From positions 1 to 51,232 of the forward strand of contig JAAXHO010000169.1 of NCBI GenBank assembly GCA_012270795.1: a stretch of DNA of 51,232 nt, given 5' to 3'. Made by a program: the position numbers and the translations under genes. Shown in pieces: positions 1,992-46,799 of the stretch; position 1 is the stretch's first letter, and each line of letters begins with the position of its first letter. The notes beneath the pieces are model-generated. The model did no database searches, had not been told where the DNA came from, and was given only the letters and a program-made list of their open reading frames with translations. The DNA is from Candidatus Poribacteria bacterium. GTDB lineage: Bacteria; Poribacteria; WGA-4E; WGA-3G.

Positions 1992-2804
1992 TTAATCAAT
2001 TTTATGAAAGCCCGTTTCAGTTCTAAACCAGTTCTGTCCTTGGTCTGGATCCCGGAAGGGGATGTTCCTTCCTAATAACTGTCGTAGAATATCACTTTCA
2101 TTGGATAAAGTATCATCGTTCAACTGTCTTGGCATATCCTCTTGTGGATAAATTACTGAACGATTGTACATTCCAAGCAAACCGACTCGCGATCTATCAG
2201 TAGAATTTGGTAAACATTGATGCCAGATAGCACCGTTTGTAAATAGAATTGACCCCTTTGGTGCGGTTGCAACACACATCTCAAGTCCTTCTGCTTCCCC
2301 CAATTTTGGTCTACGTAGTGTACTATGGGAACCAGCAATACAGGCAGTTGCTCCATTGTCTGCGGTGAAATCATCTAACATCCACACAGTTTGCCCCGTT
2401 AGAAATCCCGTTGGATATGGTTCCTGCATTGACCAATAAGGATAGTCTACATGCCATCCACCTGCTGGTGCCCCTGGTCCGACAATGTTTGCAGTGAATG
2501 TAGATGCAATTACATCCTCCCCAAGCGTCCGTTTCCATACTGCTACCACAGTTGGATGTTGAATGAGTTTTCGGAAAATCGGTGATTTCCCAACTATTGC
2601 CCAAACTCGCCGGATTTTACCATTTCCATAAGTATGGTCACGACCGTTTGCAATGTCTTCATCAACTAATTCCAAAATTACTTCACGTGTTTCATCTGCT
2701 TCTTGAGCGGAAATTACATTCTCAATAATATGGAAACCGATCTCGCGTAGATCGCGTTCAACGGAATCAAGTTGTTCTGAATTCAATGCAGATTTAATTT
2801 GCAT
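1992..2804 (-). CDS. Phytanoyl-CoA dioxygenase (PhyH) family protein
   Basis: A 270-residue Fe(II)/2-oxoglutarate-dependent dioxygenase. The iron ligands are visible as the HVD pair (His118, Asp120) in GGWHVDYPYW and a distal His195 in IWHQCLPN. Arg205, in the following DRSR, is the likely 2-oxoglutarate carboxylate ligand. The double-stranded beta-helix segments ACIAGSH and GSILFTNGAIWH lie at the expected spacing. The family hydroxylates many small molecules, and the substrate here is unknown. A clear AGGAG lies 6 nt before the ATG. It is probably in the same transcription unit as, or near, the downstream LDH2 gene. Confidence 0.92.
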   Translation of the reverse strand: MQIKSALNSEQLDSVERDLREIGFHIIENVISAQEADETREVILELVDEDIANGRDHTYGNGKIRRVWAIVGKSPIFRKLIQHPTVVAVWKRTLGEDVIASTFTANIVGPGAPAGGWHVDYPYWSMQEPYPTGFLTGQTVWMLDDFTADNGATACIAGSHSTLRRPKLGEAEGLEMCVATAPKGSILFTNGAIWHQCLPNSTDRSRVGLLGMYNRSVIYPQEDMPRQLNDDTLSNESDILRQLLGRNIPFRDPDQGQNWFRTETGFHKID

Positions 2805-2884
2805 GTATTGCTCCTATTGAGTGTATGATGGTAATTTACATTTTTTCCCTTATAATATCAAGAAGATTCTCTTACAATGAAGTA

Positions 2885-3510
2885 GCATATCCATCAAGAT
2901 CAAAGGTATTCAATTGTCCAGTTTTTTCAAATATACTATACCATTTCTAATTCAGAGGCATTCAATTGTCAAAATGTGCTTTTGTAGGAGAGAGTCTTTC
3001 AACCTCAATTTTGCTTCTTCTGAAGGCAGGGAATTTCTCGGGTTTTGAATTCTGTCCTGATCATGCAAATTTTTAGTTGTTTTTTTTGTGATTTTTGCAT
3101 TTTTTTCAAAAGTGTTTTCGATTTTGTCGTAGTATGGGTTTATGGAGGTTTTATGAATTTGCAAAATTTTGAAAAAAACAACTAAATTCGTTTTTTTGTC
3201 ATTTTTTTGTGTTTTGTTTTCTGTTTTGAGAACAATAGAAATCATGTATAATCTATTGGGTTTCTATTGTTGAAATGTCTTCCAACAAAGAGACATCGTG
3301 ACAATTGAATTCCTTTGGTTATGTGTATCTTTTCCGTGTATTCCGGGGAATGCCATTGGGCGAATGCGCTTGGTAGAATACGCGTAGGGTATTCTACATG
3401 ATTCGCCATGATTCATACCGTTGATTTGGTGAAATCCGCGAATTCCGAGATTCTGAACCCAAAACCGCAGAACCCGACAATTGAATTCCATCAAGATAAA
3501 AATAATTTGA
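2885..3510. repeat. Gene-free composite repeat region with ATTCAATTGTC termini
   Basis: This 0.6 kb stretch holds no convincing gene. It is bounded by inverted copies of ATTCAATTGTC (2908-2919 and 2957-2970 on one side; 3299-3313 and 3476-3489 on the other). Outside these lies a direct repeat CCATCAAGAT (about 2891 and 3488). Between them is a low-complexity T-rich segment (about 3065-3240). At 3340-3435 lies a palindromic stretch whose reverse strand reads AAATCAACGGTATGAAT and ends in GCATTCCCCGG, the same words seen in the repeats at 6.4 kb and 33.25 kb. It looks like nested insertions of short non-coding elements. Frames open across it are repeat translations, not genes. Confidence 0.65.
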
Positions 3511-21472: not shown

Positions 21473-23023
21473 ATGAAATTAGCAGTAATGGTTCTTATTA
21501 GCGTACTAATTCTATCACAAAGTTCCGCACTGGCAGAGGTTAAACTTCCTCGTATTTTTGGGAACAATATGGTGCTGCAACGAGAAATGCCTGTACCGGT
21601 TTGGGGTTGGGCAGATGCAGAAGAAGAAATTAAAATTGCATTAGTCAGAGATGATGGGGAAGTTATTTATAGGAATACCACGGTTGCTGATGAGAAAGGG
21701 AATTGGAAATTCTCCATGCCAGCCACAGAAGCAGGTGGACCTTATAGACTCACAATTGTTGGAAGTGACACTAAGAAAGTAACAAATACTATTGAATTCA
21801 CTAATATCCTTTTTGGTGAAGTATGGGTATGTTCTGGACAATCAAACATGGCGTGGGGTGTCCACACCTCAAATAACAGTCAGGAAGAAATCGCAGCCGC
21901 TGATTATCCAAATATCCGTTTGTTTCATATACCAAAAGAATGCTCTGGTCTACCATCACCGGATGTGAATGCTGAATGGCGACCCACCTCTCCAGATTCT
22001 GTCAGACACTTTTCTGCTGTAGCTTACTTTTTTGGCAGACATGTTCACAAGGAAATCGGTGTGCCAATTGGACTTATTAACGCCTCTTGGGGCGGCACTC
22101 GTATTGAAGCGTGGACAGCACCAGAAGGTTTTGATTTGGTTCTCGCACTTACATCAATTGCCGAGGAAATCAAAGACATCAATAGAAACTACCGCAATCG
22201 GCTTCCAGAAAAGATGAAAGAGATGGAAGAATGGATAGCAGAAACACGGGAAGCTTTAGAAAACGATAGTATCATCTATGAGATGCCAATAATTCACCAC
22301 CCTTTGAATCCTCAAGGTAGACCCACTGCGATATATAACAACATGATTTATCCGCTTGTTCCTTATGCTATTCGTGGCGCGCTTTGGTATCAAGGTGAAT
22401 CAAATATGAAAGAAGGTATGGCTTATTACGAAAAGATGAAAGCCTTGATAAAAGGTTGGCGTGAAATTTGGAATCAGGGGGATTTCCCATTTTATTTTGT
22501 CCAACTTTGTCCCTGGGGTGGCTATGACAGAAATGATCCGACCCACTTACCAAGAATATGGGAAGCACAAACTGCCACATTGGAACTACCAAATACCGGT
22601 ATGGTGGTTACAACCGACATCGGCAACGTCCGAGATATACATCCAAGAAATAAACAGGATGTTGGTCTAAGACTTGCTCTATGGGCTCTTGCGAAAACGT
22701 ACAACAAAACCGATATTGTCTACTCCGGCCCGCTATTCAAGGGAGGAGACGTTGAAGGTGATAAGATTCGCATCAGGTTTGACCATGTAGGTAGTGGACT
22801 GGTATCACGAGATAATGAACCACTTTCCTGGTTTCAAATTGCAGGGGAAGATAAGCAGTTTGTGGATGCACTCGCAGTCGTTGATGGCGATACTGTGGTA
22901 GTGTCAAGTGATGAAGTTGAATCACCAGTTGCAGTACGGTTCGGTTGGAATCAGATCGCTGAACCAAACCTTATGAATAAAGAGGGCCTTCCTGCATCTC
23001 CATTCCGCACGGATTCGTGGTAG
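21473..23023 (+). CDS. Sialate O-acetylesterase family protein (SGNH hydrolase)
   Basis: A 516-residue exported esterase (signal peptide to about Ala21). The family pattern is clear: LPRIFGNNMVLQREMPVPVWG at the mature N-terminus, EVWVCSGQSNMAWG with the nucleophile Ser124, GLINASWGGTRIEAWTAP, then GALWYQGESNM and a terminal-region histidine after DIGNVRDIHPRNK. In animals and Bacteroides such enzymes remove O-acetyl groups from sialic acid; bacterial homologues may act on other acetylated glycans. TAGGAG precedes the ATG by 6 nt. It is monocistronic, between palindromes and a terminator. Confidence 0.93.
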   Translation: MKLAVMVLISVLILSQSSALAEVKLPRIFGNNMVLQREMPVPVWGWADAEEEIKIALVRDDGEVIYRNTTVADEKGNWKFSMPATEAGGPYRLTIVGSDTKKVTNTIEFTNILFGEVWVCSGQSNMAWGVHTSNNSQEEIAAADYPNIRLFHIPKECSGLPSPDVNAEWRPTSPDSVRHFSAVAYFFGRHVHKEIGVPIGLINASWGGTRIEAWTAPEGFDLVLALTSIAEEIKDINRNYRNRLPEKMKEMEEWIAETREALENDSIIYEMPIIHHPLNPQGRPTAIYNNMIYPLVPYAIRGALWYQGESNMKEGMAYYEKMKALIKGWREIWNQGDFPFYFVQLCPWGGYDRNDPTHLPRIWEAQTATLELPNTGMVVTTDIGNVRDIHPRNKQDVGLRLALWALAKTYNKTDIVYSGPLFKGGDVEGDKIRIRFDHVGSGLVSRDNEPLSWFQIAGEDKQFVDALAVVDGDTVVVSSDEVESPVAVRFGWNQIAEPNLMNKEGLPASPFRTDSW

Positions 23024-23137: not shown

Positions 23138-26100
23138 TTAATTCCCTGCTATTTTCAAATCATTAAATGGATTTCCTTCCAAATCCGTAATACGTAGATA
23201 GAATCCCCATGGTGAAGACTCATTGCAGACTTTGACGAGGATAGTATTTTTGCCTTGAGTGAGAGTCACAGGTATTGTGCGTCGATCAATTACGGCACCT
23301 CGTGTTCTTCTGTGTGCATATACTTTCTTGCCATTCAACCAAACTTTACCTTGGTCATCGGAGTCAAATCGGATGTGTGCATTACGTTCTTCGGGTGATG
23401 AGATCGTAATAGCTGCATAGGCGGTATACCAGTTCTCTTCTTTACCGAAATCAAAGAAACCATCAACAACAACATCCCCACTTGGTATCCAACCTATTTC
23501 TCCAGTGACACCATCGTATTTCGCAGTTAGGTCAATCTGAGTTTCTTCCTCAGGTATATAAGCAGTATTATAGCCGACACCTTTCGTGTTATCAAAGAGG
23601 CCAATTGTTGCCCATGAGGTTTCAGGTAAAAAGCCTGTTTTCAATACGAGTGATTTTGCCTTTTCGGTCATTCCTAAATCCAAGCAAAACTTTGCCATTG
23701 ACATGTTATTTTCTAACTGATTTCCGACATTTTCAGGTATCAGTTCAAACAATTTACCCATCATCTCAAGGTATTTTTCTTTGTCTTTTGCTTGTTTATG
23801 TATTTGAGAGACACGGGTAAGTAGATAGCCGACTTCTGTTTCTCCCTGTGAATGTCCAGATTGATTTAGGAGTCCCAGACTACGTTGAAATTGTTCCAAT
23901 GCCTTATCATATTCTTCGTTTGCAAGATATGCATGGCCTAATGTGGAAATATAAACGGAATTTGGTCGTGTTTCAGCTGCCTTTTTTGCAAGTTCTAAAG
24001 CAAAATCCAGCATTACGAACTCATTAAGCAGTTCTTCAGCAAGCACAAAATAGTGCTCAGCATGATGTCTTTGCTCGGGTTCATTAGAAAGAATTTCAAA
24101 CCACTTTTTGTAAGCATCCAGAGCCTTTTTTTCATCATCAGACTCTAAATAATTGTCACCTAACATCTTGTGTAATAAGGGACTGTTTGCCTTTTTGGTA
24201 GCAAGTTCTTTAAGAATATTGAGTCGTTTTTCAATATTTTCATTTCCTTTGTATAAATCTAAAATTGCTTGAACGGCTAAGTCATGTTCTGATGGTTTTA
24301 GGGATGCTGTTAGGGCTTGTCTATACACAGCTTCAGCTTTTGTTTGCTTGTTTTGTCGTTTATATATTGTTGCTAAAGCGGTATAGAGTTCGTAAGCAGT
24401 TGTTTCAAGGGTAATTGCTTTTTCATAGGCTGCAGCAGCTTTTTCTAAACGTTCCTGTACATTGGTTGTATTTGACTGCTCATATAATTCTGCGACTTTT
24501 TTGTGCCATTGTGCTTGCTTCGGTTGAAGTTCGCCAATCTTTTCGTACTGAGTTATTGCCATATCAAGTTTACCACTTAGTTCGTAGTTCTGTGCAAGTG
24601 CGAGTCGCGCATCAACACTATTGGGATTTTCTTCAACCTTCTTAATCTGTTCAGGAAGTTGTTTCTCATATAGTTTTCCTTCCTGATATGCACGTTTTAT
24701 TGCTTCTTCTGCATTTTTCTTTTTGGATGCATTACGTGATATTTTCTTTAAATCCTGATAAGCTTCCGCTGCAACTTCATACTCTTTTATTGCAAATGCA
24801 CTTTTACCTATTAGGTCATATAGGATTTCTTCTTCCGTTCTATCCCTGCCTCCGTGAGAATGTGTGCTTTTAGCTGTTACTGCTTGTTTAAAAATGTCTA
24901 TTGCAGATGTGTACAATCTACTATCATAACATATCGTTCCAATTGCACAGAGGAACCAGAAGTCTTGTTTTTTGTTGCTTGATGAAAAGACTGAATCACC
25001 CTGCTCTAACAGTTTATTTGATTGTTCCAACTTCCCACTATTTTTGAATACGGCAGCTGCATAATAATATGCACGTATATTACTTGGGTCTGCTTTGCTG
25101 AGGGCAAGGTATGTTTCTCCTGCTTTCTCATGGTCATCAGTTTTTCTATATATCTCTGCGACGATTGCGAGACTATCAGTATCGTTAGTATTCTTTTCCA
25201 GTTTTGCAGTAAAATGAGTTTTTAGAAAATCAAGTTTTTCTTGAGTTTTAAATGCATTTATTAAGGTATCTCGTGGTTTATCCTCTCCAAAACTAATCAT
25301 GAATTTGTTTGAGGAATAACTCGCAGAAGTTCCGGATGATGTATTCTGTTTCATGGATTCATATAGTTGAATGGCTGCATCATTGTCATTTCCCCTCACA
25401 TACAACCGCATCAATTCTCTGTGGATATTATCCATTTCATAACTTCTTGTAGTCATGTCGATTGCTTTCTTATAGGCACTGATAGCTTTTTCAGATTCGC
25501 CCTTATTGCTATAATAGCGTGCGAGTTCTGTTTGCATAGCAAAAGAAAGCGTATTGTTCTTTTCAGCTTCCTGTAGTTTCTCCTCCAATTTTCCTTGACG
25601 ACGATAGATATTTATCAGTTGACGTTCAATATCCTGCTGCATATATTGATGGGTTGTCATCTTAAGAGCTTTTTCATAGGACTTTGCAGCTTCATCTAAT
25701 TTGCCCTGATTATAGTAGTTACGGGCAATATCTCTTTGCATATCAAAGCTGAGTGTGCCTTTCTTTTCAGCTTCCTTAAGAAATTCATCAAGTTTTCCTT
25801 GTTGACGGTAAACATCCATGATTTGTCGTTGAATATTCTGTTGTTCTCCTCCGGGTCTTGCGTATTGTAAAGCAGCATTGAAAGATTTCTTTGCATCCTC
25901 CCAATTCTTCTTACGCATATATTGTTGAGCTAATTCCTGATGAACGCTTGCATTTTCAGGTGTAAGTTCAAGTGCTTTTTTATATGTTTCTATAGCTTTA
26001 TCGGTCTGATTGTTGCTTCCGTAGAGTCTTGCAAGTCGAGCGTAATGAACACCTGTATCGGTATCTTTTTGAACATAATCTTGAGCGAGTTTTATCGCTT

Positions 26101-27871
26101 CAGTGTATCTTCCTGCCCTTTGATATGCGTTGATGATCCCATCTTTATATTTCGTATTTTCAGGGTCTACCTCAACCAGTGCTTTCCAAGTTTCTATAGC
26201 TTTATCGTGTTGGTTTTGACGTGAATAGAGGCTGGCAAGTTGTGAGCGCGATTCAAGGTCTTCGGGCAACACCTTGGCTATCTGCTCGTATATCTGAATT
26301 GCCTCTGGTATCTGATTTTGCCGCCTGTGTTCTTGTGCCAATGAACGTTGGAGAGGAATGTTCATTCGCGTTGCAGCTGGGTTCTTATTTTGATTTGTTG
26401 TGGAACCACCCCGCTTTTGTTGAATTGTCATTAATTGTTTTTGAGCGTTTTCACGATAATACTGCTGTGAATTTAGGTCATTCATCACCTCTGTCAATAG
26501 TACTTCTGCTTCGTCCCACATTTCGTATTGCATGTAGGTTCGTGCAATATTCTCTTTTTCATAATAAGACGGTGCGCCGGTGCGCCGCATCTGTCGTTGA
26601 ATTCCCATTTTTTGGATGAATTCTTTTGCTTTATCTTTATCCCCTTTTCTTGCATAAGCATCACCAAGTTTACGATATGTATCCGAAAGCTGCCAAGAGT
26701 AGTTCGGATCAATTTCTTCAGTTGCTGCTGTTAATATTCGAATTTCACGATCAATATCATTCTTCTCTCTATATGTATCCGCAATGGTATTTAACCATTG
26801 GGATCTGTTTTGAGTAGATATATTTTCAAGGAGTACGTTAACAAAAGAGTCCGAACCCTCTAAATCTCCCAACACAATTTTCCCAATTGCCACTAAATAA
26901 AGTAGAGAAGGTTCAATTTCATCATCGTTGATCTGTTCCTCGGACTTTACAGTATAGGTTTTTATACTGTCCAGTGCTTCATTGTATTGTGAGAGATGGA
27001 TTAATATTCCGACCTGTTGAGCATAACCTACATCCTTTAATTTTTCCTGCAAGAGTTTGATTGCCTTCTCCCGTTCACCTATTTCTGCATAAACACTTGC
27101 CAAACTTCGTGATACGTCATACGTTTCATTCTCTAACATTTTTTCATAGATTTCAATAGCTGCCTTTGGTTTTTCACTACTTCTGCACCTTTCGGCTGCA
27201 CTCGTTGCAAACTGGAATATTCTTGAATTATGATTTTTGTCACTTTCAATTAATTCTTTGACTATGGAGACTAATTTATCAACTTCATTTGCCTCCGTAA
27301 AAGCTCTCAATATTTCCCAATAATTATAGTAGATGTTTTGAAAATTACTACTTTCTTTCATCAGAATGACATATTGAGATACTGCTTTTTTGGATTGTCC
27401 ATTTCGCTGCAACATCTGTGCATATCTATTCCTTATATTGTAATCTTTAGGTCGTAGTTTGAGTGCAGCCTCATACGCAGTTGAAGCCTTCTGGATCTGA
27501 TTTCTGTTTTCATAGAATGAGGCTAATTTTAGATGAGCTTGTATGGAATTTGGATTTTTCTTTACTGCCTCTTCTAATTTCGTCGCGGGGTTAATAGTAG
27601 GTGCTGAACGATTGGCAAGTCTAGCTGCTTGTTGTATGCTATAATAAGATATTGTTTGACCGTAGCGATTGCGTTGGTTGGAAAAACGTAAAGCTCGGGA
27701 TGCAATACGTGCTGCATCTTGTCCACGTCCGAGGTTGTCTAAATGTTGACTTAATTGTGCGAGAAAATTAGCGTCGCGTTCTCTCATTGCTAAAGTCATT
27801 GTTTTTTGTGCAACCGCAATTGCCGACTGTGTTAAACCTGACTGTTGAAGTTTTTGGGACAACTGATACAA
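23138..27871 (-). CDS. TPR protein, C-terminal part, ending in a jelly-roll-like domain
   Basis: About 1,577 residues, mostly tetratricopeptide repeats of 34 residues (for example SIQAHLKLASFYENRNQIQ, then KASTAYEAALKLRPKDY). The last 150 residues form a separate beta-rich domain: WATIGLFDNTKGVGYNTAYIP, GEIGWIPSGD, AHIRFDSDDQGKVWLNGKKV and KNTILVKVCNESSPWGFYLRI. It resembles a carbohydrate-binding jelly roll often attached to large exported proteins. The apparent TTG start is not credible: the frame is open upstream, and CTELYQLSQKLQQSG joins VGVR of the preceding frame if one G is added at 27874-27875. It is best read as the C-terminal section of one huge gene covering 23138-32141. Confidence 0.85.
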   Translation of the reverse strand: MYQLSQKLQQSGLTQSAIAVAQKTMTLAMRERDANFLAQLSQHLDNLGRGQDAARIASRALRFSNQRNRYGQTISYYSIQQAARLANRSAPTINPATKLEEAVKKNPNSIQAHLKLASFYENRNQIQKASTAYEAALKLRPKDYNIRNRYAQMLQRNGQSKKAVSQYVILMKESSNFQNIYYNYWEILRAFTEANEVDKLVSIVKELIESDKNHNSRIFQFATSAAERCRSSEKPKAAIEIYEKMLENETYDVSRSLASVYAEIGEREKAIKLLQEKLKDVGYAQQVGILIHLSQYNEALDSIKTYTVKSEEQINDDEIEPSLLYLVAIGKIVLGDLEGSDSFVNVLLENISTQNRSQWLNTIADTYREKNDIDREIRILTAATEEIDPNYSWQLSDTYRKLGDAYARKGDKDKAKEFIQKMGIQRQMRRTGAPSYYEKENIARTYMQYEMWDEAEVLLTEVMNDLNSQQYYRENAQKQLMTIQQKRGGSTTNQNKNPAATRMNIPLQRSLAQEHRRQNQIPEAIQIYEQIAKVLPEDLESRSQLASLYSRQNQHDKAIETWKALVEVDPENTKYKDGIINAYQRAGRYTEAIKLAQDYVQKDTDTGVHYARLARLYGSNNQTDKAIETYKKALELTPENASVHQELAQQYMRKKNWEDAKKSFNAALQYARPGGEQQNIQRQIMDVYRQQGKLDEFLKEAEKKGTLSFDMQRDIARNYYNQGKLDEAAKSYEKALKMTTHQYMQQDIERQLINIYRRQGKLEEKLQEAEKNNTLSFAMQTELARYYSNKGESEKAISAYKKAIDMTTRSYEMDNIHRELMRLYVRGNDNDAAIQLYESMKQNTSSGTSASYSSNKFMISFGEDKPRDTLINAFKTQEKLDFLKTHFTAKLEKNTNDTDSLAIVAEIYRKTDDHEKAGETYLALSKADPSNIRAYYYAAAVFKNSGKLEQSNKLLEQGDSVFSSSNKKQDFWFLCAIGTICYDSRLYTSAIDIFKQAVTAKSTHSHGGRDRTEEEILYDLIGKSAFAIKEYEVAAEAYQDLKKISRNASKKKNAEEAIKRAYQEGKLYEKQLPEQIKKVEENPNSVDARLALAQNYELSGKLDMAITQYEKIGELQPKQAQWHKKVAELYEQSNTTNVQERLEKAAAAYEKAITLETTAYELYTALATIYKRQNKQTKAEAVYRQALTASLKPSEHDLAVQAILDLYKGNENIEKRLNILKELATKKANSPLLHKMLGDNYLESDDEKKALDAYKKWFEILSNEPEQRHHAEHYFVLAEELLNEFVMLDFALELAKKAAETRPNSVYISTLGHAYLANEEYDKALEQFQRSLGLLNQSGHSQGETEVGYLLTRVSQIHKQAKDKEKYLEMMGKLFELIPENVGNQLENNMSMAKFCLDLGMTEKAKSLVLKTGFLPETSWATIGLFDNTKGVGYNTAYIPEEETQIDLTAKYDGVTGEIGWIPSGDVVVDGFFDFGKEENWYTAYAAITISSPEERNAHIRFDSDDQGKVWLNGKKVYAHRRTRGAVIDRRTIPVTLTQGKNTILVKVCNESSPWGFYLRITDLEGNPFNDLKIAGN

Positions 27872-29277
27872 CTCCGTACACCTACTGGTGAACTTAGTAT
27901 TTTCGTTATCATCTCTCTAACTGTTAATGAATCACCAATATGTACAGCGATTTGTATTGTTAAATCATAGTATTGTTGTCGATTTCTTGGGTCATTTTCA
28001 GTAAGTTCCTTTAGCAGAGATAATGCGGTTTTATGTTCCCCTGAATGTATTGAAACAAATAAAGCATTTTTTTTGAGAGTCAGGTCCTCTGGAAATTCCT
28101 TCTGTAACTCTGCAAGAATTTTATGTGACCCCTCACGTTTATTTTCCCACCAAGAAAAGTAACTGATAGCCAAAGCAGGAAAGATACGGTCTTTACCTTT
28201 AGCAGAATCCAGATCAGATTGAAATACATCATATAATTTTTGATGTTGATTTATAACCCAATATTCGTTGAAGACTCTTTGTAGATACTGCAAACGGCTT
28301 GAGTCATAATATGTTGTAGGAGATGGGAAAGTGTACTGCGGCGAACTATATCCACTATAAGAGTAATTTGAACGACCCAGTGTCGTAGTTCGGCGCGGGT
28401 TTACCTTACGTGGTTTTGAACTATCAAAATATTTCTTATGGAATGCGACAGCCTCGTCAATTTTACCTTCTTTAAGATACCAACGCGCAAGAACGTTGTA
28501 AATGCCTGAAGATGGTGGTTTTGTAGATGTTGACTGAAATTCGTCTAAAATTTTCTTTGCGTCATCAATTTTTCCAAAATCTACGTACAAAGAAACTAAC
28601 CGATATGCAGTTATGTCATTAATAACTAAATCATCTTTTAGTCCGTTAAACAATTTTTCGGCATCTTTAGTTCGTGCTTGAGAACGAAAGCTTGTTATAG
28701 TTTCTATTATGTAAACCTGTCGACTTTCTGGTGTCATCCATGACATTCTGTCAAGTTGTTCCATAAATTTCTCAAGATCCAAGTCCGTTTCTGATAGTAG
28801 TTTCTCCATCTGCAAAGTTAGATATTCAGGTTTATTCGGAGATGCAGCAATGAGTCTTTCGGTAATTTGTTGACTTTTTTCATGGTTTCTATTTAGGATA
28901 TAAAGTTGTGCCAGTAACTCAAGTGTTTGGGTATCTTTTGGATTCTTGGCAGCATTTTCCTCATATTGTGCAACAAACTCATCATGTTTTCCTTTCTCTT
29001 TCATGATAAAGTTTAGCTGTACAAGTGCCCCAGCTTGTGCTTCTTCAAAGTTTCTCGGATTCCAGTCCTGTCTTTGACTATACATATAGTCCGGACGAAT
29101 TCTATGCAATAAATTGGCTGCCATATTAAGTTTGATTCTAAAAGCAAACGGGTTATTGTTAACCGGTGCAGAAATCTGTGTGACTAAAGGCGAATTGGAT
29201 GAAGCAGAAGCGGGACTTGTTGCTTTATTAGAGGCACTGCCTAAACTTGGATCATCCGGGGCATTTCTAAGATACGT
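27832..29277 (-). CDS. TPR protein, middle part (own frame between two frame breaks)
   Basis: About 480 residues of TPR sequence (GALVQLNFIMKEKGKHDEF, TLELLAQLYILNRNHEKS, IYNVLARWYLKEGKID). No true start is found. The frame is open well upstream of the ATG at 29124, through a low-complexity Ser/Ala/Asn linker (SLGSASNKATSPASASSNS, then PLVTQISAPVNNNPF), into the last codons of the N-terminal segment. The junction there reads naturally as HFT + YLRNAPDDPS if one base is added near 29275. At its other end it shifts into the C-terminal section at about 27874. It is therefore listed as part of one disrupted gene rather than a separate protein. Confidence 0.75.
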   Translation of the reverse strand, partial: TYLRNAPDDPSLGSASNKATSPASASSNSPLVTQISAPVNNNPFAFRIKLNMAANLLHRIRPDYMYSQRQDWNPRNFEEAQAGALVQLNFIMKEKGKHDEFVAQYEENAAKNPKDTQTLELLAQLYILNRNHEKSQQITERLIAASPNKPEYLTLQMEKLLSETDLDLEKFMEQLDRMSWMTPESRQVYIIETITSFRSQARTKDAEKLFNGLKDDLVINDITAYRLVSLYVDFGKIDDAKKILDEFQSTSTKPPSSGIYNVLARWYLKEGKIDEAVAFHKKYFDSSKPRKVNPRRTTTLGRSNYSYSGYSSPQYTFPSPTTYYDSSRLQYLQRVFNEYWVINQHQKLYDVFQSDLDSAKGKDRIFPALAISYFSWWENKREGSHKILAELQKEFPEDLTLKKNALFVSIHSGEHKTALSLLKELTENDPRNRQQYYDLTIQIAVHIGDSLTVREMITKILSSPVGVRSCISCPKNFNSQV

Positions 29278-32141
29278 GTAAAGTGTGGTATCGCTCGATC
29301 CGGTTCGTTAATTTCAACCAGTTTAGCACCGATTTTATAGAGTTGAATATGTGTGTCAGGGCCTTTTACTTTCTGAGCTGCATTGTCTAAAGCAAATAAT
29401 CCCTCTTCTGTCAAGCCGTGTAGTATCAAGAGATTAGCGAGTTTTATTTCAGCATCAAAAGTCTGGTTTTTTGCATGAAGCACTTGGGACCAGGCTTGTA
29501 TTGCCTCCTGTTCACGTCCAGCATCAAACAACAATTGCCCAAGTCTCTGTTTATGGACGGGGTCAGGTGCGGATTTTACAAGTTGTTGTTGGTAATTCAA
29601 TGCTTCTTGCGTATCACCGAGGTCTAAACTTATTTCAACAAGCTGGTATAACAGTTCTGGGTTTTCTCGTTGTCTATCTAATGCTCGCGCAAGTTGGAAT
29701 CTGGCACTCGTAAGGTCTCCTTCATCGTGATATATTTGTGCAAGTGCTAAAGTCGGAGCGATTGCAGATGCATTGGCTCTTAACAACTGCTTTAGTTTTT
29801 CTTCCATTTCCTCACGTCTACCTAAATCATAATAGGCGTTCATGAGAGGTTTAACGTAATTGAGTCTGTCATTTACATTGTCACTGAGTTCCCAGCATTT
29901 CCAGTATTGTGCAATTGCCTGGCGCGTGTTTCCGGCAAGGTTGTGAACAGCAGCAAGTTCCATACGTATGTCAATTGCATCCGGACGCAAACGAATGGCT
30001 TGTTTGTAACTTTCCGCAGCAGATTCATAGTCATCGGATTGTTTCGCGATTTGTGCAAGCAACTGATGTCCTTCAGGATTTCGTGGACTATGCGCTATTA
30101 CCTGTTTTGCAGCCTCAGTTGCTTTTTCAAAATCCAAACCTTTAAGATGCGAGTTTGCAATTTTAGAATAGTATTCCCTTGCATTTGTGTTATCTATCTC
30201 CGTTAAGTGTTCGTAAATGTTAATTGCATTATCGCTTCTACCTTGTTTAACATATATCTCTGCAGTCCACCTATTGATCGTTACATCATTCGGTTGGAGT
30301 TCTTTAGCCTTTAACAATATTTCAAGAGCGTAGGTCGTATTCCCTAACTTCAGATACATTTTTGTAAGACGTTTTAAGTTTGCGAATCGGTTTTCAGCAG
30401 TTAAGTCGGGTTTTTCAAGTTCCAGTTCAACAGCTTCAATTTTCTCTACAAGTGTCCCTTGACGACGATAGAGCTCAATACGTTGTGAGTCCATCTGGTC
30501 CGCGAAAAACGGATTCGGTGCAAGTTTCATGGCTTCAGTAAATTCTTTGAGTGCGTCATCAAATTGTTTATTGCTCATCAATCGTTTTGCTAAAGCTTCG
30601 CGATAACGATAGGTGTCAGGCATCAATTCAACAGCTTTTTTACTGGCTTCAATAGTCTCATCGGTATATGCCTTAGTTTCTAACAAACGTGCTAATCGGT
30701 CATAGTTCTCAGCAGTACTTTTCGCATCAGCCACCATCAGCTTCCATGTCTCAATTGCCTTTTCGCGATTCCCTTGTCGGAAGTAGTATTCTCCAAAGAA
30801 CTCAATGAAATCAAGGTTCATGGGTGCCAGTGAGATAGCCTTTTGATATGCGGTGACAGCATCTTCTGTCCATTCGTGATCTGTGTAGACTTCTGCAAGG
30901 ATAAGGCGTGTGCTTGGGTTAGTCGGATCACGATCAATCATTCTTTGGTAGATACTCTTAGCTTTATCAGTATTTTCAAGTTGTACATACAATTTACCGA
31001 GTTCCCGATATATTCCATAATCATCAGGATGTTGTTCGCTTAGGATTTCATATTCGGCAGCAGCCTCCGCATATTTTTCTGAATTACGGTACGCCTCAAT
31101 TAGGTTTAGACGTAGACCTGTGTCTGTCGGGGCAAGTTCCAAACCTTTTTTATAAGAATTGATACCCTCATCCTGCTGCTGGTTTTCAACATAAGCTGAT
31201 GCAAGCAACCCGTATATTTCTGGGTCATTTGGTCTTTTTTCAAGTTTTCCTTGATAATAGGTAATAAGTTCCTGCCAATTTGCATCAGCAGAATATATTG
31301 CTATGATGCGTTGTTGTAGATCTTTCCTGAGCCAATTGCCAGACGTAGTTAAAGTTAATGCGTCATCATAAGCATCCCGAGCTTTTTCATACGCACCGGT
31401 CGCTTCGTGAATCTTACCGATTTCTCGAAGACTAAGGCATTTCCTATACGTGTCGTCCTTTTTTATTTCTATAATTGCTTGATATTGAGCGATTGCTTGT
31501 TGAAATAATTCTTGTTCACGGAAAAGGTCAGCCAGTTCAATACGGGCAAAGATGTTCTGCGGGTCAAGTTCAGAAATCTTTCCCCATGTCTGAATTGCTT
31601 CATCTAACATATCACGGTTGTAATAGGCATAACCTAAAGCCTTGTAAATTTCCGTTAATTCTTCTGGGGAGATAGTTTGCGTTTTTTCAGATAATGTCGC
31701 GGCTTGTGATAATTCTTTTATTGCTTCATCATGTTTGCGTAGTGTCACACAGAATTGTCCCAAAGCGAAATGTGCATAGTAATCATTTTGTGCAAGGGTA
31801 ACTGCTTTCTGATATGCCGCAAGTGCTTCTTCATCTTTACCAAGCCGTTTGTAAACATGTCCTAATATTAGTTGAAGGTTGGCGTTGTTAGGTTTTGCTT
31901 CAACTTGACTCTGATAATCAGTCAGCATTGCTTCCAAGCCATCCCCTTCAAGGTATAACTGATATAACCTATCAAAGGTACTGCCTTCCTTCGGTTTCTG
32001 ATTTAGCATCAGCTTGTACCGTTCAATTATTTTCTCGTCGCTGGTTATATCTTGGGCAAGGACTACTCCAGAATTTGACACAAGAAAAAACGACAGGAGT
32101 AAAATGCAAAAAGCAATTTTGATCTTTTTCAGACTATACAT
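29241..32141 (-). CDS. TPR protein, N-terminal part with signal peptide
   Basis: 966 residues in this frame. A signal peptide (MYSLKKIKIAFCILLLSFF, cleavage after VVLA about residue 29) places the protein outside the cytoplasm. About 25 consecutive TPR units follow, for example LGHVYKRLGKDEEALAAYQK and LAEVYTDHEWTEDAVTAYQK. GGAGGT lies in front of the ATG. The frame ends in an atypical RILEMPRMIQV, just where the next frame takes over. With one base added there and one at 27874, the three frames form a single exported protein of about 3,000 residues. TPR arrays act as scaffolds for protein complexes; no enzyme domain is seen. Confidence 0.87.
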   Translation of the reverse strand: MYSLKKIKIAFCILLLSFFLVSNSGVVLAQDITSDEKIIERYKLMLNQKPKEGSTFDRLYQLYLEGDGLEAMLTDYQSQVEAKPNNANLQLILGHVYKRLGKDEEALAAYQKAVTLAQNDYYAHFALGQFCVTLRKHDEAIKELSQAATLSEKTQTISPEELTEIYKALGYAYYNRDMLDEAIQTWGKISELDPQNIFARIELADLFREQELFQQAIAQYQAIIEIKKDDTYRKCLSLREIGKIHEATGAYEKARDAYDDALTLTTSGNWLRKDLQQRIIAIYSADANWQELITYYQGKLEKRPNDPEIYGLLASAYVENQQQDEGINSYKKGLELAPTDTGLRLNLIEAYRNSEKYAEAAAEYEILSEQHPDDYGIYRELGKLYVQLENTDKAKSIYQRMIDRDPTNPSTRLILAEVYTDHEWTEDAVTAYQKAISLAPMNLDFIEFFGEYYFRQGNREKAIETWKLMVADAKSTAENYDRLARLLETKAYTDETIEASKKAVELMPDTYRYREALAKRLMSNKQFDDALKEFTEAMKLAPNPFFADQMDSQRIELYRRQGTLVEKIEAVELELEKPDLTAENRFANLKRLTKMYLKLGNTTYALEILLKAKELQPNDVTINRWTAEIYVKQGRSDNAINIYEHLTEIDNTNAREYYSKIANSHLKGLDFEKATEAAKQVIAHSPRNPEGHQLLAQIAKQSDDYESAAESYKQAIRLRPDAIDIRMELAAVHNLAGNTRQAIAQYWKCWELSDNVNDRLNYVKPLMNAYYDLGRREEMEEKLKQLLRANASAIAPTLALAQIYHDEGDLTSARFQLARALDRQRENPELLYQLVEISLDLGDTQEALNYQQQLVKSAPDPVHKQRLGQLLFDAGREQEAIQAWSQVLHAKNQTFDAEIKLANLLILHGLTEEGLFALDNAAQKVKGPDTHIQLYKIGAKLVEINEPDRAIPHFTRILEMPRMIQV

Positions 32142-43706: not shown

Positions 43707-45278
43707 TCATTTATTGAAATTCAAATCTTTTGGCTCTACAGATATTTTTGCGTGAAAAGCGTTTATGTTTCCCTTACCGCTAAACCAAGTGCCTGTTGCA
43801 CCTAAATTAAAGACTCTACCCTCGTCAAAAGGATAGCATATTTTTCCTCTCTGCCCTGATGGGATATCCCATACGGATGTTAGTGCTTGGGTAGGAATAC
43901 CTTTTGTAGGTAATTCGGTATCGCCATCAAACAGATCAAATGACCCGCCAGATTTGGCACTCCCCATCCGAATATCGATCGTAAGTGTTCCACCATTTTC
44001 AAAAGCTGTGGCATCAATTGTAATGACATTATAATCTTGATCGCCGTATTTTGGTGCGCGAAGAATGTGTAAAACCTCTTGCTCAAAATTTTCTTCATTG
44101 AGGGTTACATTTGCTCCAGTCAATAGCGGATCCGATATATTTTCATCAAATCCAGGAAATTTTGCATCTAAGGAGTCGTTCAGAAATGTAAGGTAGGCAT
44201 CCTCTTGTGGAATATCCTTTTGCGAACAGTCATCAAAGAAATCATTAAGTGGAAGTTTTCCCATCACATCAAATTCTGGGGAAATCACTAAACAATCTAC
44301 TGGTGAACCTTCTGTCCATCCGTCCATGATGGCTTTTGCTAAGGGATCTGTAATGTTAAATGTTTTGTCTTCTCGTTCGCGTCTTTTAGCTATTGGCTCG
44401 CGTAAACTGGGAGTACGTCCTAATTCGGCATTGGTTACCCAAATATTGATAAAGTTTTCATTTAGGAATTCAATGATTTGGTTATCAGAGAGGACAACTG
44501 CCCTCAATTCTTTGCCGCTCCCTCAGCATGCCTCGTCGGCTAATGGACCATTTATTGAGATTACATGAATGAGCTTAACCTCTTGTTCAGCTATCTCTAC
44601 TGCTTGATCTGGAGGCACCCAGTTAATTTGTTCTGACTTGTAGAAACAGAGAATAAGTGCGTGTTTTGCTGCTTCTTGTGCAATTGACATGGTAAATTCT
44701 ACACCTTCAGGTTGTGTGCCTGCATAAAGTTCTATTTGGGGACAGAAACCGATGTCCGTACAGCCTATCGTATCCCATCCAACATCGAAATTCAGTGTCG
44801 TTTCAGGCACGTGCGTCTGAAAGCGGACGATTTTATCTTTGGTTCGGTCGATGACGAGATGACCAGCAAACTGAGACGGTGTGAACCAACCACCCTTTAG
44901 AGCAAATTCTGCATAAATGCGAAACACAATGTCGGCAAATTCACCATTGTAAGCGCGTAGACATGCCCACAGACCTTGTGAGTCTTCTGCATCCATTTCC
45001 AGGCGTGGATCGGGATGAAGTTGCCTTAGCAATGTGAGCACACCTTCTTTTTCAATCTCCCAACATTCACCCACCGAAACCGATTCTGATGGGAGAAATG
45101 CTTGAAAAACGGAGGTAGGATATTGCTTTTCCGGTTCAACGACATGCAGGTTCGCCAATTCGTCCCACTCCACGTGGAAGTTGTATTGTGTGTATTCAAT
45201 CGGTGCGATGAACCCTTTGACGTTGACTTCTGCGTCGCTGTTGAGATTAAGTGCGATTTTGTTTCCTAAAGTTTTCAT
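43707..45278 (-). CDS. Selenoprotein N-like protein, copy A (Sec at residue 252, in-frame TGA)
   Basis: One gene of 523 residues read through a TGA at 44523-44525 as selenocysteine. Residues 1-251 end in NGPLADEAC; then U252 and GSGKELRAVVLSDNQIIEFL continue in the same frame. This matches the animal SELENON site (DDQSCUGSGRTLRETVL, LNESFISTW). More SELENON-like segments are FTPSQFAGHLVIDR, VPETTLNFDVGWDTIG, DIGFCPQIEL before the Sec and SPVDCLVISPEFDVMGKL after it. About 130 residues at the C-terminus form a beta-rich extension (TAFENGGTLTIDIRMGSA, VFNLGATGTWFSGKG). No signal peptide, EF-hand or membrane helix is seen, unlike vertebrate SELENON. ATG 45278 lies 1 nt behind the stop of copy B, with GGAG inside that gene's end. 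A hairpin candidate follows the TGA. Confidence 0.88.
44490..44507 (-). promoter_or_regulatory. Candidate bacterial SECIS hairpin of copy A
   Basis: On the mRNA, 18 nt after the UGA, GAGG (44505-44502) can pair with CCUC (44493-44490) around the loop GCAGUUGU. A shifted register pairs GAGGG with CUCUC. Distance, short stem and a G at the loop start fit the loose bacterial SECIS pattern for SelB binding. The segment differs from that of copy B by one base only. Confidence 0.6.
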
Positions 45279-45279
45279 T

Positions 45280-46799
45280 TTAATTCTCCTCTACAGAAAT
45301 TTTTGCAAGGAATGCGTTAGTACACATTTCGCCTTCATCCCAATAGCCAGAAGCTCCTAACCTAAAACGTTGCCCTCGGTCAAAACGGTGTATCATCTGC
45401 AATGTATCATCGGGTTCCCCCATGTTCCAGTAAGCGCATCTTTTGGTTCTTCTTCATCTATGGAAAGTTCGCCATCCTCTTCAAATAGATAAAACTCGCC
45501 GTCACCACCAGCCCTACCGATTCTAATATCAATGGTGAGTGTTCCGCCGTTTTCAAAAGACGTGACATCAATCACGACAACAGTGTAATCTAAATAACCG
45601 ACAGTTGGTGTCCGAAAAACGTCCAGCACTTCCTCAACAGGATGCTCACGGGTAAGAACAATGTTTCCCAATCCGGGCTGTTTTCCTTTCAAGGAATCCT
45701 TGAGAAATAGGTGGTAATATTTTGCTGGAGAGGTATTATCCCTCGTGAGTTCATTGAACTGTTGTTTACCCATCAGTTCAAATTCGGGTGATATAACGAA
45801 GGAATCCATCGGCGAACCTTTTCTTGATCCGGTATTCCATCCCCTCATGATGGCTTGTGCCAAAGCGTGAGTTGTATCAAACGGCCTGCCTTCGCGCTCA
45901 CATCTTTTGGCAATCGGTTCCCGTAAACGACGGACACGTCCCAATTCAGAGTGGGGGACCCATGTGTTAATGAAATGTTCGTTCAAAAATTCAATAATTT
46001 CGTCTCTTGAGAGGACACCTGCCCTCAGACCTTTGCCACTCGCTCAGCAGGACTCATCGAAAAGCGGTCCATCTAATGTGACTACGTGGATCGGTTTCTG
46101 CTGTGCCGGTGCCATCTCCAAAGCCTCCTCCAGCGATACCCAGTTAATGTGCTGAACCTTATAGAAACACGATATCAGTGCGTGTTCGGCTTCTTCTTGT
46201 GTGATTGACGCGGTGAATTCGACATCGTGAGGTGGTGTACCTGTGCAGAGTTCCATTTGAGGACAATAGCCGATCTCGGATCCGATTGTATCCCAATAAG
46301 CATCAAAATTCAGTGTACCATTAGGCACCTGCATCTGAAAGAATATGATTTTTTCTTTGATTCGGTCAATAACGAGATGGCCAGCAAACTGGGAAGGTGT
46401 GAACCTCCCACCCTCTATGACAAATTCCGCATGGATGCGAAAGGTGATGTCCACGACTTCATTGCTGCAAGCACGCAGACATGCCCACAAGCCATACGAA
46501 TCTCCGTTATTGATGTCCAAATCCAATCTCGGTTTCGAATTAAGTTGTCTCAGTAATCCCAGAACACCCGCCTCAATTTGCCAGCAATCACCCACCGAAA
46601 CCGGTTCCGATGGAAGAAATGCCTGAAAAATGGATGCGGCATGTTGCTTCTCTGGTTCAGCGACTCGCAAATTTGCCAATGCATCCCACTCTATATGGAA
46701 GTTGTATTGCGTGTATTCAATCGGTGCGATGCAGCCTGTGACAGACACTTCTGCATCACCGTCAAGATTAAGTGTGACTTTATCAGATAAAGTCCTCAA
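45280..46799 (-). CDS. Selenoprotein N-like protein, copy B (Sec at residue 252, in-frame TGA; one frame break near the 3' end)
   Basis: A paralogue of copy A with the same geometry: 251 residues ending in DGPLFDESC, TGA at 46044-46046 read as U252, then ASGKGLRAGVLSRDEIIEFL and FINTWVPHSELGR. FTPSQFAGHLVIDR, NFDAYWDTIGSEIGYCPQMEL and SPMDSFVISPEFELMGK align with copy A and SELENON. The present frame stops early at 45393 (GNPMIHCR). One G added to the run at 45417-45421 restores EPDDTLQMIHRFDRGQRFRL, GASGYW and a terminal KISVEEN, matching the end of copy A, with TAA at 45280-45282. Corrected length is 506. The start is TTG 46799 with GGAG 7 nt upstream. The conserved TGA in both copies argues for recoding, not decay. 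Confidence 0.85.
46008..46027 (-). promoter_or_regulatory. Candidate bacterial SECIS hairpin of copy B
   Basis: GAGG (46026-46023) pairs with CCUC (46014-46011) around GCAGGUGU, starting 18 nt after the UGA. Alternatively UGAGGG pairs with CUCUCA as a 6-bp stem with an 8-nt loop. The apical GGU resembles known bacterial SECIS loops. Position and sequence are shared with copy A. Confidence 0.62.

Follow-up and report, generated by a model that had tools for sequence, protein, structure and literature searches.

The window analysed here, a stretch of 51,232 nucleotides, is contig C127 of a draft genome (5.18 Mb over 298 contigs) that comes from a member of Candidatus Poribacteria, the phylum known best from marine sponges. 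Three consecutive open reading frames on its reverse strand (Table 1) raise the question of whether they are separate genes or pieces of a single one and, in the latter case, what a TPR protein some 3,000 residues long might do outside the cytoplasm.

Table 1. Features of the giant TPR gene and of its immediate surroundings in the window
Feature	Position	Strand	Basis
First frame, 966 aa, ATG start	29241-32141	-	ORF
Middle frame, about 480 residues	about 27835-29280	-	ORF
Third frame, 1,577 aa from TTG	23138-27871	-	ORF
Predicted signal peptide, residues 1-29	32055..32141	-	hydrophobic core 3-21
Conserved N-terminal TPR solenoid, residues 30 to about 961	29259..32054	-	Pfam TPR families and model
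Variable Ser/Ala/Asn-rich linker, start of middle frame	29135..29258	-	visible in translation
Middle TPR-like region	27876..29134	-	TPR_19 and others; collinear with intact paralogues
C-terminal TPR region	23642..27871	-	Pfam TPR families; 84-86% to the orthologue's two contigs
C-terminal jelly-roll domain (CTD), last ~165 residues	23141..23641	-	structure prediction
First break, seven-base shortfall at short tandem repeat	29241..29280	-	comparison with G013 orthologue
Second break, one-base shortfall	27870..27880	-	comparison with G013 orthologue
Upstream neighbour, about 275-300 aa	32340..33239	-	no Pfam/NCBIfam match
Convergent SASA-type acetylesterase, downstream	21473..23023	+	family scan

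Three frames of a single gene

The first-pass annotation had joined the three frames into a single exported TPR protein with a length near 3,000 residues; this is borne out by relatives that align with them as single frames. The same genome has two intact paralogues (contigs C194 and C222) that run uninterrupted over 3,126 and 3,396 codons, and all three window frames are collinear with both of them (tblastn). For example, residues 1-965 of the paralogue L010 match the first frame at 62%, residues 1014-1409 the middle frame at 38%, and residues 1413-2523 and 2739-3181 the third frame at 34-40%. The nearest orthologue (L033, genome G013), which is 92% identical to the window in the first part, is a single frame of 1,820 codons spanning both junctions until its contig ends, and the remainder lies on a second contig at 84%.

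Translation signals are unevenly distributed over the three frames. A Shine-Dalgarno-like GGAGG is present only before the first one; the middle frame is open far upstream of its first ATG (position 29124, 430 aa from there), before which none of the four Shine-Dalgarno-like motifs tested was found. The TTG of the third frame is preceded by GGAG, which would suit three separate genes, but the relatives consist of single frames and the nearest orthologue lacks the junctions, so that separate genes or programmed frameshifting are very improbable and, as far as tested, refuted by the intact orthologue and paralogues. No homologue encoded by three genes with starts at these points was seen. The three frames are thus almost certainly one gene, interrupted by two frame-shifting losses, whose product would be an exported TPR protein of ~3,000 residues.

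Architecture of the predicted protein

The hydrophobic core of the first frame agrees with the signal peptide already proposed for this protein; cleavage is presumably before the QD at residue 30, following the usual cleavage rule, and Q30 is invariant in 12 of 12 aligned family members. The N-terminal solenoid is predicted to comprise 54 helices (mean pLDDT 89.2, pTM 0.53), with a mean column identity of 73% across 26 sequences. Units of 34 residues scoring over the Pfam cut-off and helical hairpins in the model place it among the TPR solenoids. A simple profile (threshold 25) recovers 22, 3 and 22 units in the three frames, far above the means of 0.2, 0.15 and 0.65 in shuffled sequences (n=20), in line with the several dozen units initially described, and the Ser/Ala/Asn linker is visible where the middle frame starts. 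The TPR region that follows this linker is much less conserved (34-40% identity to the paralogues), and identity to the orthologue is 73.5% in the middle part versus 92.5% in the first part.

The CTD was also recognized at first reading as jelly-roll-like, and structure prediction confirms it (mean pLDDT 88.9 for a 378-aa piece). The model superposes on the sugar-binding domain of a GH2 beta-glucuronidase over 126 residues (Z 11.3, rmsd 2.6 Angstrom), a fold related to GH2 and PA14 jelly rolls; the Pfam matches, Glyco_hydro_2_N (E 1e-4) and PA14, are both below cut-off, and a sequence search of solved structures gave at best E 0.21. Unlike GH2 proteins, the CTD has no attached catalytic domain. 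It therefore resembles a glycosidase sugar-binding domain in its modelled fold, which is the basis for a putative sugar-binding role.

Two further structural leads were not retained. Conservation of the concave groove, a possible hint of a peptide ligand, shows no clear excess (maximal-residue frequency of 0.745 at concave helix-A versus 0.704 at outer helix-B positions), and no groove stands out, which counts against the arm proposed below. A Foldseek search with the N-terminal model returned generic TPR scaffolds, such as Ski3, IFT-A and Ctr9 subunits, whose TM scores are low (0.15-0.26 by query length), and no specific structural relative.

A family of giant TPR proteins in one order of Poribacteria

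With the first frame as query, matches at E 1e-50 or better were found in 20 of 39 related genomes, and most of the full-length ones sit in open frames of 2,900-3,700 codons. Such a size had been regarded as rare for extracytoplasmic TPR proteins; it is not rare in this lineage, since 56 of 70 ORFs that bear the N-terminal domain and are uncut by the locus end measure 2,805-3,676 aa (the 70 include the window frame itself, and overlapping loci are counted more than once). Every one of the 64 named loci that carry the N-terminal domain belongs to Candidatus Poribacteria, in a scan based on two short peptide patterns that reaches fairly close relatives only. The family is present in 38 of 84 Poribacteria genomes and 5 of 21 genera, all from one order, and in none of the 12 genomes outside that order. 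Within the reach of these scans, it therefore appears to be found only in Poribacteria.

The window protein has the conserved 930-residue N-terminal solenoid that defines the family. A tree of 62 rows, from which duplicates were removed on the basis of the last 300 residues and in which at least one gene (L080/L139) still appears twice, contains several old paralogue groups. The window copy clusters with the operon-adjacent members L081, L091 and L104 (13-row clade, support 1.0). The paralogues differ at their tips: a LamG domain is inserted in L009 (E 5e-26), and L010 bears a second jelly roll. The jelly-roll form of ~3,000 residues described at first stands, with the amendment that a real shorter form of 1,925-1,967 aa also exists, which has a conserved end and no jelly roll and precedes a full-length copy in several loci. 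Short members of about 1,930-1,967 aa were located 3-202 bases before the full-length copy in L073 (5402-11185), L081 (3886-9786) and L091 (5348-11179). Moreover, short genes of about 708-729 aa, coding for a signal peptide, LamG, TPR and the same jelly roll, trail the giant in several genomes, and not in the window.

Origin of the frame losses

Over the 5.5 kb that can be aligned at the DNA level with the G013 orthologue (87.8% identity), the window copy shows exactly two frame-shifting indels, all others summing to multiples of three. The two one-base corrections initially proposed are therefore right for the second break; the first is a shortfall of seven bases, with the same effect on the frame. 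The uninterrupted frame typical of the family is intact in the relatives and broken by these two losses in the window copy.

It is close to an even chance, if slightly below it, that this copy is truly a pseudogene and so a dead member of a family whose paralogues live on, which would be compatible with the functional explanation given below. Two independent frame losses, one of them at a tandem repeat as slippage predicts, argue for it, as do the seven of seven neighbouring genes at 32.3 to 39.5 kb that are unbroken with respect to the same relative (G013), and the other family members of genome G000 (contigs C284 and C132) that are also broken. However, no in-frame stop is present within any piece, and codon usage is still constrained in every one of them and on both sides of both breaks, with dN/dS values against the orthologue of 0.12 (first piece), 0.33 (middle piece) and 0.27 and 0.18 (last piece, in two parts), so that the downstream pieces were translated as protein for most of their history. 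Another frame-shifted gene in the window, near 45.4 kb, also speaks against a pseudogene, and makes an assembly error possible. The gene may be dead in its own genome, where the broken copy is the operon-type one and two other subfamilies and the operon itself are intact.

The gene near 45.4 kb belongs to a duplicated pair (43.7-45.3 and 45.3-46.8 kb), in which the second copy of the larger gene (45262-46028) is broken across two frames. The same genome holds other members of the LamG-TPR-jelly-roll group, in L128 (4639-7990) and L130 (5994-6503), that are also split over frames.

Linkage with a Bat-like operon

In other genomes, the giant gene is followed on the same strand by an operon coding for P505, MoxR (AAA_3), DUF58, BatA-N/VWA and VWA/GATase-like proteins. 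P505 is a membrane protein of 505 aa with three hydrophobic segments and no family match; the BatA-like and VWA/GATase proteins harbor DxSxS motifs, with two N-terminal and one C-terminal hydrophobic segments. Among the 84 genomes, which are not independent of each other, the giant and P505 are both present in 37, the giant alone in one (G053), P505 alone in one (G033), and neither in 45; this count leaves out P505 matches weaker than E 1e-130, namely those in G032, G031 and G035 and second copies in G028, G030, G033 and G034. All 38 genomes with a giant also carry the P505/MoxR/DUF58/BatA-like/VWA-GATase operon (P505 in 37), and the BatA-like protein, present in 38 of 38, is otherwise confined to G033 and a partial match in G038. 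In G033 a contig start truncates a giant-like C-terminal piece, and in G053 the MoxR is truncated in the same way, so that both exceptions may be assembly limits. The agreement also holds within lineages: genus g1 has 12 genomes with both and 6 with neither, genus g2 19 with both, one with the giant only and 18 with neither, and families f2/f4 have 6 with both, one with P505 only and 4 with neither. The upstream 299-aa gene, used as a control, agrees far more loosely with the giant (29 with both, 9 with the giant only, 13 with the neighbour only).

Of the 37 genomes with giant and P505 together, 27 had their gene gaps computed; the other 10 have the two genes on separate contigs, far apart or not computed. 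In 23 of these 27 same-contig pairs the giant lies less than 2 kb upstream on the same strand, with an estimated gap of 13-1,629 bases, and in the remaining 4 the gap is 9-12 kb. The family is therefore inherited with, and usually directly upstream of, the Bat-like operon, as co-occurrence and gene order show. Part of this co-occurrence may reflect the loss of one linked block and not a functional need.

The adjacency to MoxR/DUF58/BatA-type genes seen for orthologues in other genomes is absent for the window copy, whose genome has a complete operon on another contig (C251), unlinked to the giant. That the giant is not beside the operon in G000, G013 and G003 counts against its being a part of the encoded machine, as does the persistence of the MoxR of this clade in four genus-g1 genomes that have no giant (G002, G008, G010 and G014). 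Exported-looking WD40 or LRR-WD40 proteins of about 690-1,026 aa adjoin MoxR in giant-less genomes (L134 5083-12948, L135 6128-11403).

Other neighbouring genes

The upstream neighbour is conserved, lying beside the giant elsewhere in the genus as well. Its protein is 58-91% identical across one Poribacteria family and is encoded in single copy in nearly all carrier genomes; it was discarded as a partner, since it occurs in 13 giant-less genomes and is absent from 9 that have the giant. The SASA-type acetylesterase was not seen beside the giant family in the other loci searched. In addition, proteins starting like an ECF sigma factor were labelled by eye in L127 (10674-13748), L130 (2752-6036) and L153 (9733-12792), one of which adjoins a LamG-TPR-jelly-roll gene. 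Those of L127 and L130 appear, by the same by-eye labels, to continue to a hydrophobic segment and WD40-like repeats, a fusion that from its sequence could be a membrane-tethered regulator.

Comparison with known systems

The closest likeness is to the Bat (Bacteroides aerotolerance) and MoxR-DUF58-VWA operons, in which a MoxR AAA+ protein, DUF58, BatA-N/VWA and an exported TPR protein are encoded together. In contrast to BatC and BatE, the poribacterial TPR partner has 3,000-3,700 aa and a jelly-roll (and LamG) tip, and the operon includes P505 and VWA/GATase; no BatD was matched by Pfam in the subset of ORFs scanned among the poribacterial operon proteins. The giant may work like a Bat TPR partner, a likeness made up of generic TPR units and gene context; it is not assigned to BatC/BatE, because the window copy has no linkage to the operon in its own genome. 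The MoxR-vWA-beta-propeller ternary conflict system was rejected, the operon MoxR scoring 207 bits with AAA_3 versus 47 bits with bpMoxR, and the PADLOC defence models gave no match at 1e-5.

The best NCBIfam match of the giant is another TPR-repeat protein, the PEP-CTERM protein PrsT (TIGR02917); this assignment was rejected as well, the score of 240.4 bits being below the curated cut-off of 312.2, and the window protein is about three times the length of the PrsT model. The eukaryote-like repeat proteins reported for sponge Poribacteria (Kamke et al. 2014, PMC3909097) are likewise TPR-rich and bear signal peptides; that article, in its account of these domains, counts TPR domains and does not describe the length, architecture or operon link of the giant family. 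Literature searches found nothing for giant genes, bacteria and TPR combined; for Poribacteria, none of the matches listed concerns giant proteins by title, the only match with LamG concerns Pseudovibrio, and the only one with MoxR is by its title a ribosomal-protein phylogeny. New here are the family, its near-strict link with a Bat-like operon, and the window copy as an interrupted member of the operon type.

Possible function

That its relatives go together with an operon for a cell-envelope ATPase points to the giant as an arm of this machine on the outside. The joint reading of one interrupted gene whose product would serve a Bat-like MoxR/VWA machine as its extracytoplasmic TPR arm is somewhat better than evenly probable. 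The cytoplasmic MoxR would remodel or load the VWA membrane proteins of the operon, whose metal-site VWA domains would face the periplasm. The giant would leave the cytoplasm through Sec, its conserved first solenoid would dock on the P505/VWA membrane assembly, and its variable second solenoid would carry the jelly-roll tip (in paralogues also LamG) towards an envelope or surface glycan; tandem paralogues with different tips could provide several outside arms for one machine. The Bat literature describes the Borrelia protein BB0173 as having three TM helices and a periplasmic VWA domain (PMC5700661), proposes the TPR parts of Bat operons as scaffolds or assemblers of complexes (PMC3557215), and postulates an action of MoxR on the VWA metal site (PMC3557215, PMC5700661), the function of Bat itself being presented as still elusive (PMC3557215). 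Regarding the cell-surface or periplasmic scaffold suggested at first, the scaffold part fits, and the periplasmic reading now draws on the linkage with the Bat-like MoxR/VWA operon.

Two other functions were considered. The giant could be a eukaryote-like cell-surface protein for contact with the sponge host, a TPR stalk whose LamG and jelly-roll tips bind host matrix glycans, with the operon acting as a mere neighbour or an export aid. The LamG domains of the paralogues and the jelly-roll CTD are in favour of this, together with the duplicated paralogues with swapped tips and the frequent signal peptides of poribacterial TPR proteins, discussed as candidates for host interaction (PMC3909097). 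However, it is rather unlikely, given the near-perfect link to an inner-membrane MoxR/VWA operon and the fact that the conserved end is the N-terminal solenoid and not the tip; moreover, neither an outer-membrane anchor nor a sorting signal turned up in the family scans run. A role as TPR scaffold in the synthesis or export of polysaccharides, as for PelB/BcsC/PgaA/PrsT, would agree with the identity of the best NCBIfam matches (PrsT with 240 bits, PgaA and BcsC) and with a CTD that is sugar-binding-like in its predicted fold, but these matches are all under the curated cut-offs (240 of 312 bits for PrsT, 58 of 858 for BcsC), no porin barrel was matched, and no synthase or export gene is present among the operon genes scanned, which makes this role improbable. 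By analogy with Bat, the giant would be a periplasmic or surface TPR arm of a poribacterial machine. The data show the integrity of the gene in relatives, its anatomy, the co-occurrence and the gene order; export, docking, ligand and purpose are inferred.

Significance

Bat operons occur in several phyla. We tentatively propose, with more doubt than confidence, that one order of Poribacteria has a Bat-like machine with arms of 3,000-3,700 residues, a conserved docking solenoid and exchangeable glycan-binding tips distributed over tandem paralogues, gained or lost as a set. A giant TPR part with one strongly conserved end and an almost perfect tie to the operon offers a sharp handle on what a Bat-like machine holds outside the cytoplasm, and gives the eukaryote-like repeat proteins described for sponge symbionts a concrete protein family. 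If the proposal is true, an ATPase-driven envelope machine with very long outside arms would exist in one Poribacteria order.
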